From Phascolarctobacterium sp. (lineage in GTDB: Bacteria > Bacillota > Negativicutes > Acidaminococcales > Acidaminococcaceae), in assembly GCA_017452325.1 (NCBI GenBank), contig JAFTMR010000050.1:1-50590 (forward strand): a DNA stretch of 50,590 nt, given 5' to 3'. The notes beneath the pieces were generated by a model, which searched no databases, was not told where the DNA came from, and was given only the letters and a program-made list of their open reading frames with translations. Position 1 is the stretch's first letter, and every line of letters begins with the position of its first letter. Of this stretch, positions 32,317-37,196 are shown one piece after another. Position numbers and translations under genes: made by a program.

Positions 32317-32357
32317 AACTCTGACCTGCTTACTTGTTCGGTAAGTTGGTCAGAGTT
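32317..32357 (-). terminator. Terminator of the HD-GYP gene
   Basis: 17-bp imperfect stem (32317-32333 with 32341-32357) overlapping the stop codon. On the minus strand it is followed by TTTTATTTTCC. Confidence 0.75.
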
Positions 32358-32976
32358 CTTTTGCTTTATGAAGTTCGATGGCTTGGGGCAGGACGCTTTC
32401 TATAAATGCCTTGACGATATGTGGGTCAAAATCCTGTCCTGCTTTATCCTGCAGCTCGGTGATTGCTTCGGCATGAGTCTTTTGCCAATGCTGAGTACAG
32501 GGGTTGATATAACGGTCGTAATAATTGGCAACTGCAATTATACGTGCTCCCAAGGGAATGTTTTGCCCTTTCAAGCGTTTGGGGTAGCCGGTGCCATCAT
32601 ATTTTTCGTGGTGAGAACGAATAATACTAATGATGCTGCCAAATTCCGGGAAGTTTTCCAACATGGCTGCGCCTGCCAGACAGTGGCGCTTGTAAGCAGC
32701 TTCTTCGCGTTTGGTAAGATAGGGAACTTTAGAAAGCACCAGATTAGGTACGGAAAGCTGCCCTATATCGTGAAGCAAGGCTGCGGTTTTAATGCAGGCA
32801 ACTTCAGCAGGAGGTAAACCAATTTTGGCTGCAATGCTGGCAGAGTAGTTGGCAACCTGCTTGCTGTGCATATAAACACTTTTATTTTTTATTTCTAATA
32901 TTTGTAAGTAAAAGTCACAAACTTCCCTGCTGCGATCATCATAGGGAAATTCCAGACATTGTGGTAAAGCAATCAT
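32350..32976 (-). CDS. HD-GYP domain phosphohydrolase
   Basis: 208 residues, a single HD-GYP domain with no receiver or sensor domain attached. The HD dyad is in LLHDIGQ and the extended family signature in HHEKYDGTGYPKRL, followed by GARIIAVANYYDRY. HD-GYP proteins hydrolyse cyclic di-GMP or related nucleotides. The first motif reads HDIGQ where HDIGK is common; His and Asp are kept, so activity is plausible. Transcribed against the flanking genes. Confidence 0.9.
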   Translation of the reverse strand: MIALPQCLEFPYDDRSREVCDFYLQILEIKNKSVYMHSKQVANYSASIAAKIGLPPAEVACIKTAALLHDIGQLSVPNLVLSKVPYLTKREEAAYKRHCLAGAAMLENFPEFGSIISIIRSHHEKYDGTGYPKRLKGQNIPLGARIIAVANYYDRYINPCTQHWQKTHAEAITELQDKAGQDFDPHIVKAFIESVLPQAIELHKAKEL

Positions 32977-33045
32977 TTTTTTATCCGCCCATCATCGGTT
33001 AGTGTACTTAGTATATCACTTTCTTTGTGAATGTGAAATAGAGGC

Positions 33046-33074
33046 TTGCAGAAAATTTTTGAAAAGAATATAAT
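33046..33074 (+). promoter_or_regulatory. Promoter of the structured RNA at 33081
   Basis: -35 TTGCAG (33046-33051), 17-bp spacer, perfect -10 TATAAT (33069-33074). The predicted start, 7 nt on, is the G at 33081 where the structured segment begins. Confidence 0.8.
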
Positions 33075-33080
33075 AGGCTA

Positions 33081-33300
33081 GTGCGACCCGGGTCTGTGGT
33101 TGAAAGTCGATGCCAGTTGCAGGCGAAACGATCCACGTAAGTAGCGTAAAAAATTAGCTATGAGCACGGTGCAGCTTAGAAGTAAGTCCTGCCGCAATAA
33201 TAAATTCTTGGCGAGAGGGGTAGTAGTGGGGAGCTGATGCTTAGGAGCGAACCTTCCAGCAGGCGAGTGTGGGGGCGAAGATCAGGTCAGCCGGGTTGCA
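33081..33300 (+). ncRNA. Structured non-coding RNA of about 220 nt, family uncertain (raiA-motif candidate)
   Basis: No ORF. The ends close on each other as a 10-bp stem (TGCGACCCGG at 33082-33091 with CCGGGTTGCA at 33291-33300, one G-U). Inside, several helices can form, e.g. GCAGG with CCTGC, CTTA-GAAG-TAAG, and GTGG with CCAC, and the base composition is far more G-rich than the flanks. Its own promoter starts transcription exactly at the closing stem. A separate AT-rich hairpin (33304-33311 with 33332-33339) follows without a T run. Size, closing stem and occurrence 3.4 kb from hpf (raiA) recall the raiA-motif RNA; the start GTGCGAC also resembles the 5' end of group II introns, but no domain V or reverse transcriptase is present. 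6S RNA is less likely. Confidence 0.7.
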
Positions 33301-33428
33301 TAAAATCTTCTGAAATTTATAATTAAATTATAGAAGATTGGCTTGCTGTTTAAGTTGATTGGGTATATAATTATATGTAAATTTTATGCAGGATTATTGT
33401 TTAAAAATTTGAAAGGAGACTATCAAAG

Positions 33429-34199
33429 ATGAAAAAATTACTCATTTTGATGATGACCATCATTGCTGCAGTTGCAATGTTAGCTGCTGGTTGTGGCGGC
33501 GGTGAAAAGAAAGCTGCCGAGAAGGTTCTGCGTGTAGGTACCGAACCCACCTTCGCACCCTTTGAATTCCAAAAAGAAGGTAGCAGTGAGTTTACCGGTT
33601 TTGACATGGATTTGATTCGTGCTATTGGTAAACAAGCTGGCTACAAAGTTGAAATTATGAATATGGGTTTTGACGCTCTTATTCCTGCTTTGAACGCAGG
33701 TAATATTGATGCTACCATCGCTGGTATGACCATCACTGAAGAACGTAAAGGTGCTGTTAGCTTCTCTGAACCCTATTATACTTCCGGTTTGGTTGTTATG
33801 GTTAACAAAGACAATAACGAAATCAAATCTATCGAAGATTTAAAAGGCAAACGTATTGCTTGCCAAATCGGTACTACCGGTGAAATGAAATCCAGAACAG
33901 TTGAAGGTGCTACTGTTGTTGCATTCAACACTAATACCGAAGCTGCAATGGAATTGAAAAACAAGGGCGTTGACGCTGTAATCAACGACAGTCCGGTTGT
34001 TGGCTACTACTTGGCACAAGGCGGTAATGCAACTGCTAAAACCGTTGGTGAAGTTATGGAAGCTGAACAATATGGTATCGCTGTGAAAAAAGGCAATGAC
34101 AAACTTGTTCAAGACATCAACAAAGCTATGGCTGAGCTGAAAAAGAACGGCGAATTTGACAAGATTTACAAAACCTGGTTTGGTGAAGTGAAGAAATAA
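33429..34199 (+). CDS. GlnH-like ABC transporter substrate-binding lipoprotein, paralogue 1
   Basis: 256 residues, SBP_bac_3 family. Signal peptide with lipobox LAAGC (Cys 22), then GGGEKKAAEK. EPTFAPFEFQKEG, FTGFDMDLIRAIGKQAG, GNIDATIAGMTIT and a C-terminal LKKNGEFDKIYKTWFG identify a glutamine/polar amino-acid receptor. A close relative (roughly 80 percent identical by eye) lies immediately downstream, so this is a recent tandem duplication. A terminator separates the two, so they can be expressed at different levels and feed one permease. Confidence 0.92.
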   Translation: MKKLLILMMTIIAAVAMLAAGCGGGEKKAAEKVLRVGTEPTFAPFEFQKEGSSEFTGFDMDLIRAIGKQAGYKVEIMNMGFDALIPALNAGNIDATIAGMTITEERKGAVSFSEPYYTSGLVVMVNKDNNEIKSIEDLKGKRIACQIGTTGEMKSRTVEGATVVAFNTNTEAAMELKNKGVDAVINDSPVVGYYLAQGGNATAKTVGEVMEAEQYGIAVKKGNDKLVQDINKAMAELKKNGEFDKIYKTWFGEVKK

Positions 34200-34212
34200 T
34201 ATTCGATTCTTG

Positions 34213-34249
34213 ACGGAGCACAGTGTTAACCTTGTGCTCCGTTTTTATT
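34213..34249 (+). terminator. Terminator between the two binding-protein genes
   Basis: 10-bp stem (34213-34222 with 34233-34242) followed by TTTTTATTTT. Confidence 0.88.
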
Positions 34250-34297
34250 TTAATTTTAGAATTATTCTTATACCACAAAATGTGAGGGGGATTTATC

Positions 34298-35065
34298 ATG
34301 AAAAAATTATTGATTATGATGATGGCTGTTTTGGCTGCTTGCAGTATGCTTCTGGCTGGTTGCGGTGGCGGCGAAAAGAAAGCTGACGAAAAAGTTTTGC
34401 GTGTGGCTACTGAGCCTTCTTTTGCTCCTTTTGAATTCCAAAAAGAAGGTAGCAAGGAATTTACCGGTTTTGATATCGATTTGATTCGTGCCATTGGTAA
34501 ACAAGCTGGTTACAAGGTAGAAATCCAGAATATGGGCTTTGACGCTCTTATTCCTGCATTGACCAGTGATAATATTGACGTTGCAATTGCTGGTATGAGC
34601 ATTACCGAAGAACGTAAAAAAGTAATTACCTTCTCCGATCCGTACTATACCTCCGGCTTGATTGTTATGGTTGCTAAGGACAATAACGAAATCAAATCCA
34701 TTGATGATTTAAAGGGCAAACGTATTGCTTGTCAAATTGGTACCACTGGCGAGAAAAAATCTAGAAGCATTGAAGGTGCTGTTGTAACTGCCTTTAATAC
34801 TCAGAGCGAAGCTTCCATGGAATTAAAAAATGGCGGCGCTGATGCTGTAATTAATGACGCTCCTGTTGTTGGCTACTATTTGGCGCAAGGCGGCAGCAAG
34901 GTTGCTAAAACTGTTGGCGAAGTTATGGAAGCTGAAGAATACGGCATTGCTGTAAACAAAAAGAACACTCAACTTGTTCAAGACATCAATAAAGCTATGG
35001 CTGAACTGAAAAAGAACGGGGAATTCGACAAAATCTATAAGACTTGGTTTGGCGAAAAGAAATAA
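34298..35065 (+). CDS. GlnH-like ABC transporter substrate-binding lipoprotein, paralogue 2
   Basis: 255 residues, same architecture as its upstream neighbour: lipobox LLAGC then GGGEKKADEK. Differences are spread over the sequence and include ligand-lobe positions (TEPTFAPF to TEPSFAPF; TSDNIDVAIAGMSIT). These could alter specificity. Nearest to the permease and ATPase genes, so this copy is the likely operon member. The exact amino acid is not readable. Confidence 0.92.
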   Translation: MKKLLIMMMAVLAACSMLLAGCGGGEKKADEKVLRVATEPSFAPFEFQKEGSKEFTGFDIDLIRAIGKQAGYKVEIQNMGFDALIPALTSDNIDVAIAGMSITEERKKVITFSDPYYTSGLIVMVAKDNNEIKSIDDLKGKRIACQIGTTGEKKSRSIEGAVVTAFNTQSEASMELKNGGADAVINDAPVVGYYLAQGGSKVAKTVGEVMEAEEYGIAVNKKNTQLVQDINKAMAELKKNGEFDKIYKTWFGEKK

Positions 35066-35130
35066 TCACTACCATATTTGAAGTTAGGTAAGAGGCTATT
35101 TGATGTCCCGTTATAGAAGGGATGAAGAGA

Positions 35131-35787
35131 ATGGATTTAAATTTTGATTTGATTGCAAGTTCTTTCCCGTTGCTTTTGGCTGGTGCAGCCATTACCGTGG
35201 AAATTACTGCTTTAAGTGTAGGCTTTGGTCTTTTGATTGGCTGTATGGTTGGCATTGCGCGTTTGTGCAGTGTTAAACCCTTGCGTTATCTTGCCAATAT
35301 ATATGTAGATTTTATTCGTGGTACTCCGCTGCTGGTACAAATCTTTTTGGTTTATTTCGCTTTGCCCGGTATTACAGGCAGTCGCGTTGACCCTTTCTTT
35401 GCGGCTATATCTGCTTGCTCTATTAACTCCGGCGCGTATATCGCAGAAATTTTCCGCGCAGGTATTCAGTCCATCGACAAAGGGCAGATGGAAGCAGGTC
35501 GTAGCTTGGGTATGAGCTGGGCGCAAACTATGCGTTATATCATTATGCCCCAAGCCTTTAAACGCATTATCCCGCCTTTGGGTAATGAATTCATTGCCAT
35601 GCTGAAAGATTCTTCCTTGGTTTCCGTTATCGGCTTTGAAGAATTGACTCGTCGTGGGCAATTGATTATAGCGCGTACTTATGCCTCCTTTGAGATTTGG
35701 ATGTGCGTTGCCCTGATTTATCTGGTAATGGTATTTATGGTTGCAAGATTGGTTGCTGTGCTTGAAAGGAAGTTTGATACGAAATGA
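35131..35787 (+). CDS. Polar amino-acid ABC transporter permease (GlnP-like)
   Basis: 218 residues from the ATG at 35131, 8 nt after AGAAGGGA; the ATG at 35122 overlaps that site. HisM/GlnP family with about five membrane segments. Signature parts: [28 protein letters not shown], and the EAA loop [38 protein letters not shown] is typical. Its stop overlaps the ATPase start (ATGA). One permease serves the two upstream receptors, probably as a homodimer. Confidence 0.94.
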
Positions 35788-36515
35788 CAAAGGAAATGAT
35801 TAAAGTAACAAACCTGCAAAAAAGCTTCGGCAACTTGCATGTCTTGAAAGGTGTAAACCTTACTATCGCAGAAAAAGAGGTAGTAGTTATCATTGGCCCT
35901 TCCGGCAGTGGTAAAAGTACTCTGCTGCGCTGTATGAATTATCTGGAAGAACCTACAGGTGGTAGCGTTGTTATTGATGGTGTTCCTCTGACCAGTGATG
36001 CCAATATAAATGAGGTGCGTAAAGAAGTAGGGATGGTGTTCCAACGCTTCAATCTTTTTCCGCACATGACTGTTTTGCAGAATTTGATGCTGGCTCCTAT
36101 GAAAGTACGCGGTATAAAGAGGGATGAAGCAGAAGCTACTGCAAAGATGTATCTGGAAAAGGTTGGCTTGGCTGATAAGGCTAGCGCTTATCCGGAGCAG
36201 CTTAGTGGGGGACAGCAGCAACGTGTTGCTATTGCGCGTGCTCTGTGCATGAAACCCAAGGCTCTGCTTTTTGACGAACCTACCTCTGCTCTGGACCCGG
36301 AAATGATTAACGAAGTATTGGATGTTATGAAGAGTTTGGCTCATGAGGGTATGACCATGGCCGTTGTTACTCACGAAATGGGCTTTGCTCGTGAAGTAGG
36401 TGACCGCGTTGTTTTCGTAGATGGTGGTGTGATTTTAGAAGAAGGCACCCCCGACGATATTTTCTTTCACGCTAAAGAGGAAAGAACCAGAAGCTTTTTG
36501 TCTAAAATTCTCTAA
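35784..36515 (+). CDS. glnQ: Polar amino-acid ABC transporter ATPase (GlnQ-like)
   Basis: 243 residues. Walker [11 protein letters not shown]-loop [10 protein letters not shown], signature [15 protein letters not shown], Walker [16 protein letters not shown]-loop [10 protein letters not shown]. Start ATG overlaps the permease stop by 4 bp; a second ATG four codons on (35796) is possible. Last gene of the importer. About the same length and layout as the ATPase at 17541 but clearly a separate system. Confidence 0.94.
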
Positions 36516-36668: not shown

Positions 36669-37196
36669 ATGAGTATTCATGTAAAAGGCAGAAACGTTGA
36701 AGTAACCCCGGCAATGAAAGATTATGTTGAAAAGAAAATTGCCAAAATCACCAAACAGTTTAAAGCAGTAGGTGACATTACCGCGGTGCTTAAAATTGAG
36801 CACGGTTATCATATCGCTGAAATTACTGTTCCGGCAAGCGGCATTTTGCTGAGAGCCCAGGAATCTACTAAGGATATGTATTCTTCCATCGATTTGGTTG
36901 TTGAAAAAATTGAACGCCAAATCCATAAATATAAAACTCGTCTGATGAAGAGAAAATATGCCAACTTTGCAGAAGCTCCTGCACCGGCTCCTGCCGTTGA
37001 GGATGATGGCGAATTTGAAATCATCAAGAGCAAAAAATTTACTCTGCGTCCTATGAATGTGGAAGAGGCTATTTTGCAGATGAACCTGTTGAATCACGAC
37101 TTCTTTGTATTCTATGACGCTGAGCTTGATGGCGTGAATGTTGTTTATCGTCGTAAAGATGGTAAGTATGGCCTGCTCTCTCCCGAATTAAAATAG
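36669..37196 (+). CDS. hpf: Ribosome hibernation promoting factor, long form
   Basis: 175 residues. The N-terminal domain (about 1-105) is the YfiA/HPF ribosome-binding fold (MSIHVKGRNVEVTPAMKDYVEKK split; KIERQIHKYKTRL). An Ala-Pro linker (about 108-118) leads to a C-terminal dimerisation domain (about 120-175; FTLRPMNVEEAILQMNLLNH, FFVFYDAE, VVYRRKDGKYGLL). The long form pairs 70S ribosomes into 100S dimers in stationary phase. Ideal ribosome site AAGGAGGT. Next to secA as in many Firmicutes, but a terminator lies between them. Confidence 0.96.
   Translation: MSIHVKGRNVEVTPAMKDYVEKKIAKITKQFKAVGDITAVLKIEHGYHIAEITVPASGILLRAQESTKDMYSSIDLVVEKIERQIHKYKTRLMKRKYANFAEAPAPAPAVEDDGEFEIIKSKKFTLRPMNVEEAILQMNLLNHDFFVFYDAELDGVNVVYRRKDGKYGLLSPELK

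Follow-up and report, generated by a model that had tools for sequence, protein, structure and literature searches.

A raiA (ModT) RNA Gene in Phascolarctobacterium and the Retention of raiA RNA in Negativicutes Genomes without Spo0A or GGDEF Proteins

Introduction

The DNA analyzed here (the window; 50,590 nt of a Phascolarctobacterium sp. contig) contains, upstream of the gene for the hibernation promoting factor (hpf), a stretch that raises two questions, namely which RNA it encodes, and what such an RNA could do in a host that has neither Spo0A nor an intact GGDEF protein. The initial annotation, made by eye, proposed a structured RNA gene with its own promoter, belonging either to the raiA-motif RNAs or to isolated group-II-intron-like domains I. 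The raiA (ModT) RNAs are among the most abundant bacterial RNAs and are intricately folded. Several cryo-EM structures have been published; to our knowledge, neither a mechanism nor a partner protein has been described. The host genome is a 1.8-Mb draft (119 contigs, 89.7% complete) of the family Acidaminococcaceae, class Negativicutes, and its HPF protein is most similar to those of Phascolarctobacterium faecium and other members of that family. The features of the locus, in order along the window, are as follows.

32350-32976, minus strand: HD-GYP-type phosphohydrolase gene, divergent neighbor (Pfam HD_5, 1.7e-39)
33046-33074, plus strand: raiA RNA promoter, TTGCAG - 17 nt - TATAAT, read directly; block conserved in genus siblings and in the family
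33083-33299, plus strand: raiA (ModT) noncoding RNA, full length (RF03072 match, single copy, covariation)
33083-33091, plus strand: P1 closing helix, 5′ strand, GCGACCCGG; pairs with 33291-33299
33112-33124, plus strand: P3 stem (GCC/GGC) with the 7-nt loop AGUUGCA that forms pk-1; pairs conserved
33170-33176, plus strand: UGCAGCU strand of pk-1, located in the pk-loop and forming 7 bp with 33115-33121; covariation
33217-33256, plus strand: P8 arm; its internal loop (AGUA/GAA) resembles an E-loop and is kept in most homologs
33291-33299, plus strand: P1 closing helix, 3′ strand, CCGGGUUGC; pairs with 33083-33091
33304-33339, plus strand: A+U-rich hairpin 3′ of the raiA RNA, without a U-tract (-12.3 kcal/mol, z -5.7)
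33343-33371, plus strand: promoter serving the transporter gene, TTGCTG - 17 nt - TATAAT, read directly
33429-36515, plus strand: genes of a polar amino-acid ABC transporter (two SBP_bac_3, permease, ATPase; Pfam), in an order that much of the class keeps
36669-37196, plus strand: hpf, long-form hibernation promoting factor (the “raiA” protein gene; Pfam Ribosomal_S30AE and S30AE_C)

Identity of the RNA

In an Rfam cmscan search, the plus-strand stretch at 33083-33299 matched the raiA family (RF03072) with 193 bits against a gathering threshold of 101.3 (E 2.5e-51), and this covariance match covered the model end to end (1-209). It is the sole non-tRNA Rfam family across the whole window, and the host genome contains a single copy. 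The longest ORF overlapping the stretch is 42 aa, so that the earlier description as ORF-free holds for long ORFs. Neither the group II intron families nor the 6S family matched anywhere in 32800-33600, even at E values up to 10; a minus-strand match to STnc550 (19 bits vs. a gathering threshold of 48) was at chance level, and apart from it no other Rfam family matched as an identity for the stretch. The 6S RNA resembles raiA RNA in its similar size, growth-phase role and stand-alone gene, but its architecture is different. The OLE, GOLLD and ROOL families, which also had no match in the window, resemble raiA RNA in being large, structured bacterial RNAs whose biochemical role is likewise unsettled, although they constitute separate Rfam families and raiA RNA is a monomer in cryo-EM (PMC12286853). 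It is virtually certain that the element is a raiA (ModT) RNA, the first of the two candidates initially put forward, and the locus adds one more member to an already known family.

Fold and Covariation

The fold was evaluated on an alignment of 68 distinct raiA RNA sequences, the majority from Negativicutes and a few from other Bacillota. The structure tested combined the Rfam consensus and the published cryo-EM description with a consensus fold of the same alignment. Among the 68 homologs, 98.1% of the pair cells were paired and 25 of the 55 pairs showed two-sided (compensatory) change; the pairings of P1, P3 and pk-1 that enter these figures were taken from outside the test alignment, whereas the variable hairpin and the helix 54-56/84-86 were read off it and are biased towards it. 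Compensatory cells numbered 384 compared with a shuffled mean of 116, none of 500 shuffles reached any of the five measures, and pairing fell to 29-45% (maximum 45.3%) when the 3′ partners were slid by one to three columns. Minimum free energy folding of the single sequence (z -1.85) was not decisive and was not used as evidence. The covariance score, together with the covariation in 68 relatives, thus confirms that the structured element is real, far beyond chance.

The closing helix P1 consists of nine consecutive pairs, to which single-strand folding adds two weaker ones; a closing stem is present where one had been proposed, but not as a run of ten pairs. Of the eight pairs counted in this outer helix, seven show compensatory changes across the 68 homologs. 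The 5′ GUGCG is not kept in homologs, the first bases of P1 varying freely with compensation in their partners. The position of the P3 loop agrees with the cryo-EM description, in which the loop starts at A33 (PMC11751092), and pk-1 (A33-U94 to A39-U88, every pair standard) is placed where that structure describes it (PMC11751092). The cells of pk-1 are paired in 99.2% of cases among the 68 homologs, and the pseudoknot covaries, with U-A replaced by C-G in 29 sequences and A-U by G-C in nine. The AGUA/GAA loop of P8 was found in 56 of the 68 homologs and is common in Negativicutes; an E-loop in P8 is also a feature of the C. difficile ModT RNA, and it has been proposed as a protein contact and reported in ~20% of ModT species (PMC11706538). 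P1, P3, pk-1 and the conserved core are likewise shared with the clostridial raiA/ModT RNAs of C. acetobutylicum and C. difficile. The updated model further contains pk-2, of only 2 bp, and a helix P2 that is missing even from C. difficile (PMC11706538).

Several variant copies were noted among the homologous loci. One (L129 9826-10109, genome G019) contains the segment GCAGCTTAGA..GTAAGTCCTGCCG twice, an internal duplication that spans the pk-1 partner and the next helix strand. Another (L172 480-640; G069:C40:118506-118610), from a Spo0A-bearing relative, is a raiA gene that lacks ~100 nt of its core and contains no Ns; this shortening is either a natural deletion or an assembly artefact. 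Three further candidates for short versions were rejected, two (L173 and L175) being truncated by contig ends and one (L174) containing an assembly gap of Ns.

Promoters and Transcription Unit

The raiA promoter carries a -10 box (33069-33074) that matches the consensus perfectly and a -35 box (33046-33051) that shares three of six bases with it; the weak -35 is the reason why a consensus scanner missed the promoter. The initial description of a near-consensus promoter is therefore apt for the TATAAT and the 17-nt spacer, but not for the -35; the promoter is nonetheless conserved. Nor does the stem start exactly at the promoter, as had been stated, since P1 begins 8 nt 3′ of the -10 box. When the best promoter within 70 nt upstream was taken for 70 distinct raiA loci, TATAAT was the best -10 in 54. 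Transcription is likely to start at approximately 33080-33082, judging from the spacing of these elements.

The transporter gene has a separate promoter that sits 44 nt 3′ of the raiA RNA, and this block was also found in three sister species and in genomes G013 and G025. The conserved promoter of raiA itself and the separate promoter of the transporter gene support the reading, already proposed in the initial annotation, that the RNA would be a stand-alone gene and not a leader. A vegetative-type promoter of its own is also a property of clostridial raiA/ModT genes.

No canonical intrinsic terminator was found after the raiA RNA in the host genus, and the absence of a U-tract terminator directly past P1 distinguishes this genus from the clostridial systems. 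The hairpin at 33304-33339 was rejected as an intrinsic terminator, as it has no U-tract and is not found in the flanks of sister species; it was not among the terminator-scan matches either. Read-through from the raiA RNA into the transporter mRNA is thus possible at this locus. A strong U-tract terminator lies a few nucleotides 3′ of P1 in Veillonella, and the ModT RNA of C. difficile has two 3′ isoforms (PMC11706538).

Gene Neighborhood

Genes for raiA RNA usually have comFC upstream and hpf downstream, an arrangement that is common but not defining. The raiA gene in the window has the HD-GYP gene upstream, and hpf starts 3.37 kb past the RNA, which bears out the initially given distance of 3.4 kb; the four-gene amino-acid ABC transporter lies between. 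The position of hpf a few kilobases downstream is shared with clostridial raiA/ModT loci, from which the window differs in the HD-GYP gene, in the lack of a comFC-like gene and in the intervening transporter. The order of divergent HD-GYP gene, raiA, one or two SBP_bac_3 genes, permease, ATPase, hpf, secA and prfB was found at nearly all Acidaminococcaceae loci and, in part, class-wide. Veillonella likewise has the HD-GYP gene divergent from raiA and next to it; in the spore-forming families examined, this gene does not adjoin raiA. Four loci (L120, L131, L132 and L159) contain raiA without a downstream transporter, which implies that the RNA is not tied to the transporter. In most Negativicutes loci hpf lies within 10 kb downstream of raiA, with a gap that is variable and holds other genes.

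The two adjacent SBP_bac_3 genes of the window (33429-35065) are ~82% identical in their matched part and constitute a tandem duplication. The pair occurs in many relatives, and others have a single gene.

Distribution Among Negativicutes

A survey of 253 Negativicutes genomes, each at least 90% complete, identified raiA RNA in 144, Spo0A in 45, long HPF in 251 and GGDEF in 185. By subtraction, 100 of the 144 raiA-bearing genomes have no Spo0A and 65 have no GGDEF, counts that do not represent independent events, as the absence of GGDEF clusters by lineage. Every genome with Spo0A also has GGDEF, and the 65 GGDEF-less carriers are therefore without Spo0A as well. They include Veillonella parvula SKV38, V. 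atypica, V. infantium, V. tobetsuensis, Veillonella sp. VA142 and Succiniclasticum ruminis, in all of which raiA was present and neither GGDEF nor EAL was found.

The 109 raiA-less genomes comprise one family in its entirety (f15, probably Selenomonadaceae; 107 genomes) and two others. In essence, raiA seems to have been lost once. All 107 members of this family retain hpf and 105 contain GGDEF. A permissive Rfam search of four members revealed no divergent raiA upstream of hpf, and the transporter-hpf order is retained in two of these four. Matches to the cspA thermoregulator family were noted just upstream of hpf at three raiA-less loci (L176 9035-9374, L177 9138-9465 and L180 894-1215), above the gathering threshold in L176 only. 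To the extent of our search, neither the retention of raiA without GGDEF nor its wholesale loss from one GGDEF-rich family is stated in published raiA/ModT work.

In the host genome, one GGDEF-EAL protein was found, in which the GGDEF domain is degenerate (EGPRF replaces GG[DE]EF); its three genus mates contain no GGDEF. The gene for this lone EAL protein (G000:C10:24702-25922) is absent from the genus mates and is possibly a remnant, a gain or contamination.

Alternative Explanations

An origin of the stretch as a piece of group II intron domain I, or as the remnant of some other ribozyme, can practically be dismissed: the GUGCG start that it shares with domain I is a chance resemblance at a 5′ end that homologs do not conserve, and the covariance searches returned a full-length raiA match in place of any group II family. 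A cis-acting, riboswitch-like leader of the downstream amino-acid transporter genes or of hpf deserves more consideration, given that the Rfam type line of RF03072 reads “Cis-reg; riboswitch,” that most of the class has an SBP_bac_3 transporter gene after the RNA and that no strong terminator intervenes before the transporter gene in the host genus. Nevertheless, it is highly unlikely in view of the transporter gene's own conserved promoter, the four loci that have raiA without a transporter, the strong terminator right after P1 in Veillonella, and the ability of clostridial homologs to complement in trans (PMC11706538).

A direct partnership of the RNA with HPF in ribosome hibernation would account for the synteny with hpf that is seen in most loci of the class, but is improbable. 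All 107 genomes of the raiA-less family keep hpf, which led us to reject this partnership as the reason for the synteny, and the gap between the two genes varies and contains others. In addition, raiA RNA levels in three clostridia fall as the cells enter stationary phase (PMC11706538), where an RNA with a role in hibernation would be expected to behave in the opposite way. The conserved task of raiA might instead be to tune c-di-GMP, and thereby sporulation and aggregation: in C. difficile, dccA and c-di-GMP increase and sporulation is blocked when modT is deleted (PMC11706538), and a divergent HD-GYP-type gene adjoins raiA both in the window and in Veillonella. Whether c-di-GMP is a general ModT target was posed as a question in the same study (PMC11706538), where a role more basic than sporulation was also argued from non-spore-formers (PMC11706538). 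For Negativicutes, such a task is very unlikely. It is contradicted, unless an unrecognized diguanylate cyclase exists, by the 65 carriers without GGDEF, finished Veillonella genomes among them, and the family that lost raiA is GGDEF-rich. Because so many carriers lack any known route to c-di-GMP synthesis, this molecule is excluded as a general raiA target in the class; judging from gene content, sporulation and c-di-GMP cannot be the conserved function of raiA in Negativicutes.

Possible Function of the RNA

The explanation strongly favored overall is a stand-alone raiA (ModT) RNA gene whose product has a trans-acting, RNP- or ribozyme-like role in growth transition. Within it, the trans-acting growth-transition role itself, carried over from the clostridial homologs, is fairly probable, and the chance that the RNA works in the form of an RNP is about even. 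A feasible model may be that the vegetative sigma factor transcribes raiA from approximately 33080 to yield a stable, abundant RNA of ~220 nt with the compact raiA fold. This RNA would be trans-acting, with the core of an RNP as its most probable form and a ribozyme as a less likely one, and would time the exit from exponential growth. The clostridial effects on sporulation, aggregation and c-di-GMP would then be downstream, lineage-specific consequences; in the present host, which differs from the clostridia in having neither Spo0A nor an intact GGDEF protein, the RNA would have to function in the absence of Spo0A and, it seems, of any intact diguanylate cyclase. A tentative extension, to which we give somewhat less than an even chance, is that raiA is a core housekeeping RNA (possibly catalytic or an RNP), independent of sporulation, c-di-GMP and HPF, that was replaced or shed by one Negativicutes family, with the clostridial phenotypes being indirect.

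The retention of raiA in at least 65 near-complete Negativicutes genomes without Spo0A or GGDEF narrows the question of its function. A spore-free and c-di-GMP-free host such as V. parvula SKV38 offers a clean system for the primary function, and the raiA-less family constitutes a natural comparison set.

It is also tempting to speculate that raiA may be functionally tied to the adjacent divergent HD-GYP-type hydrolase in Acidaminococcaceae and Veillonella. As a separate observation on this gene (32350-32976, minus strand), it is conserved in both lineages, including genomes that have no GGDEF. In the window and in many relatives, the last metal-ligand aspartate of its product reads N (AVANYYDRY for AVADYYD), which suggests that the activity of the protein may be altered or lost.
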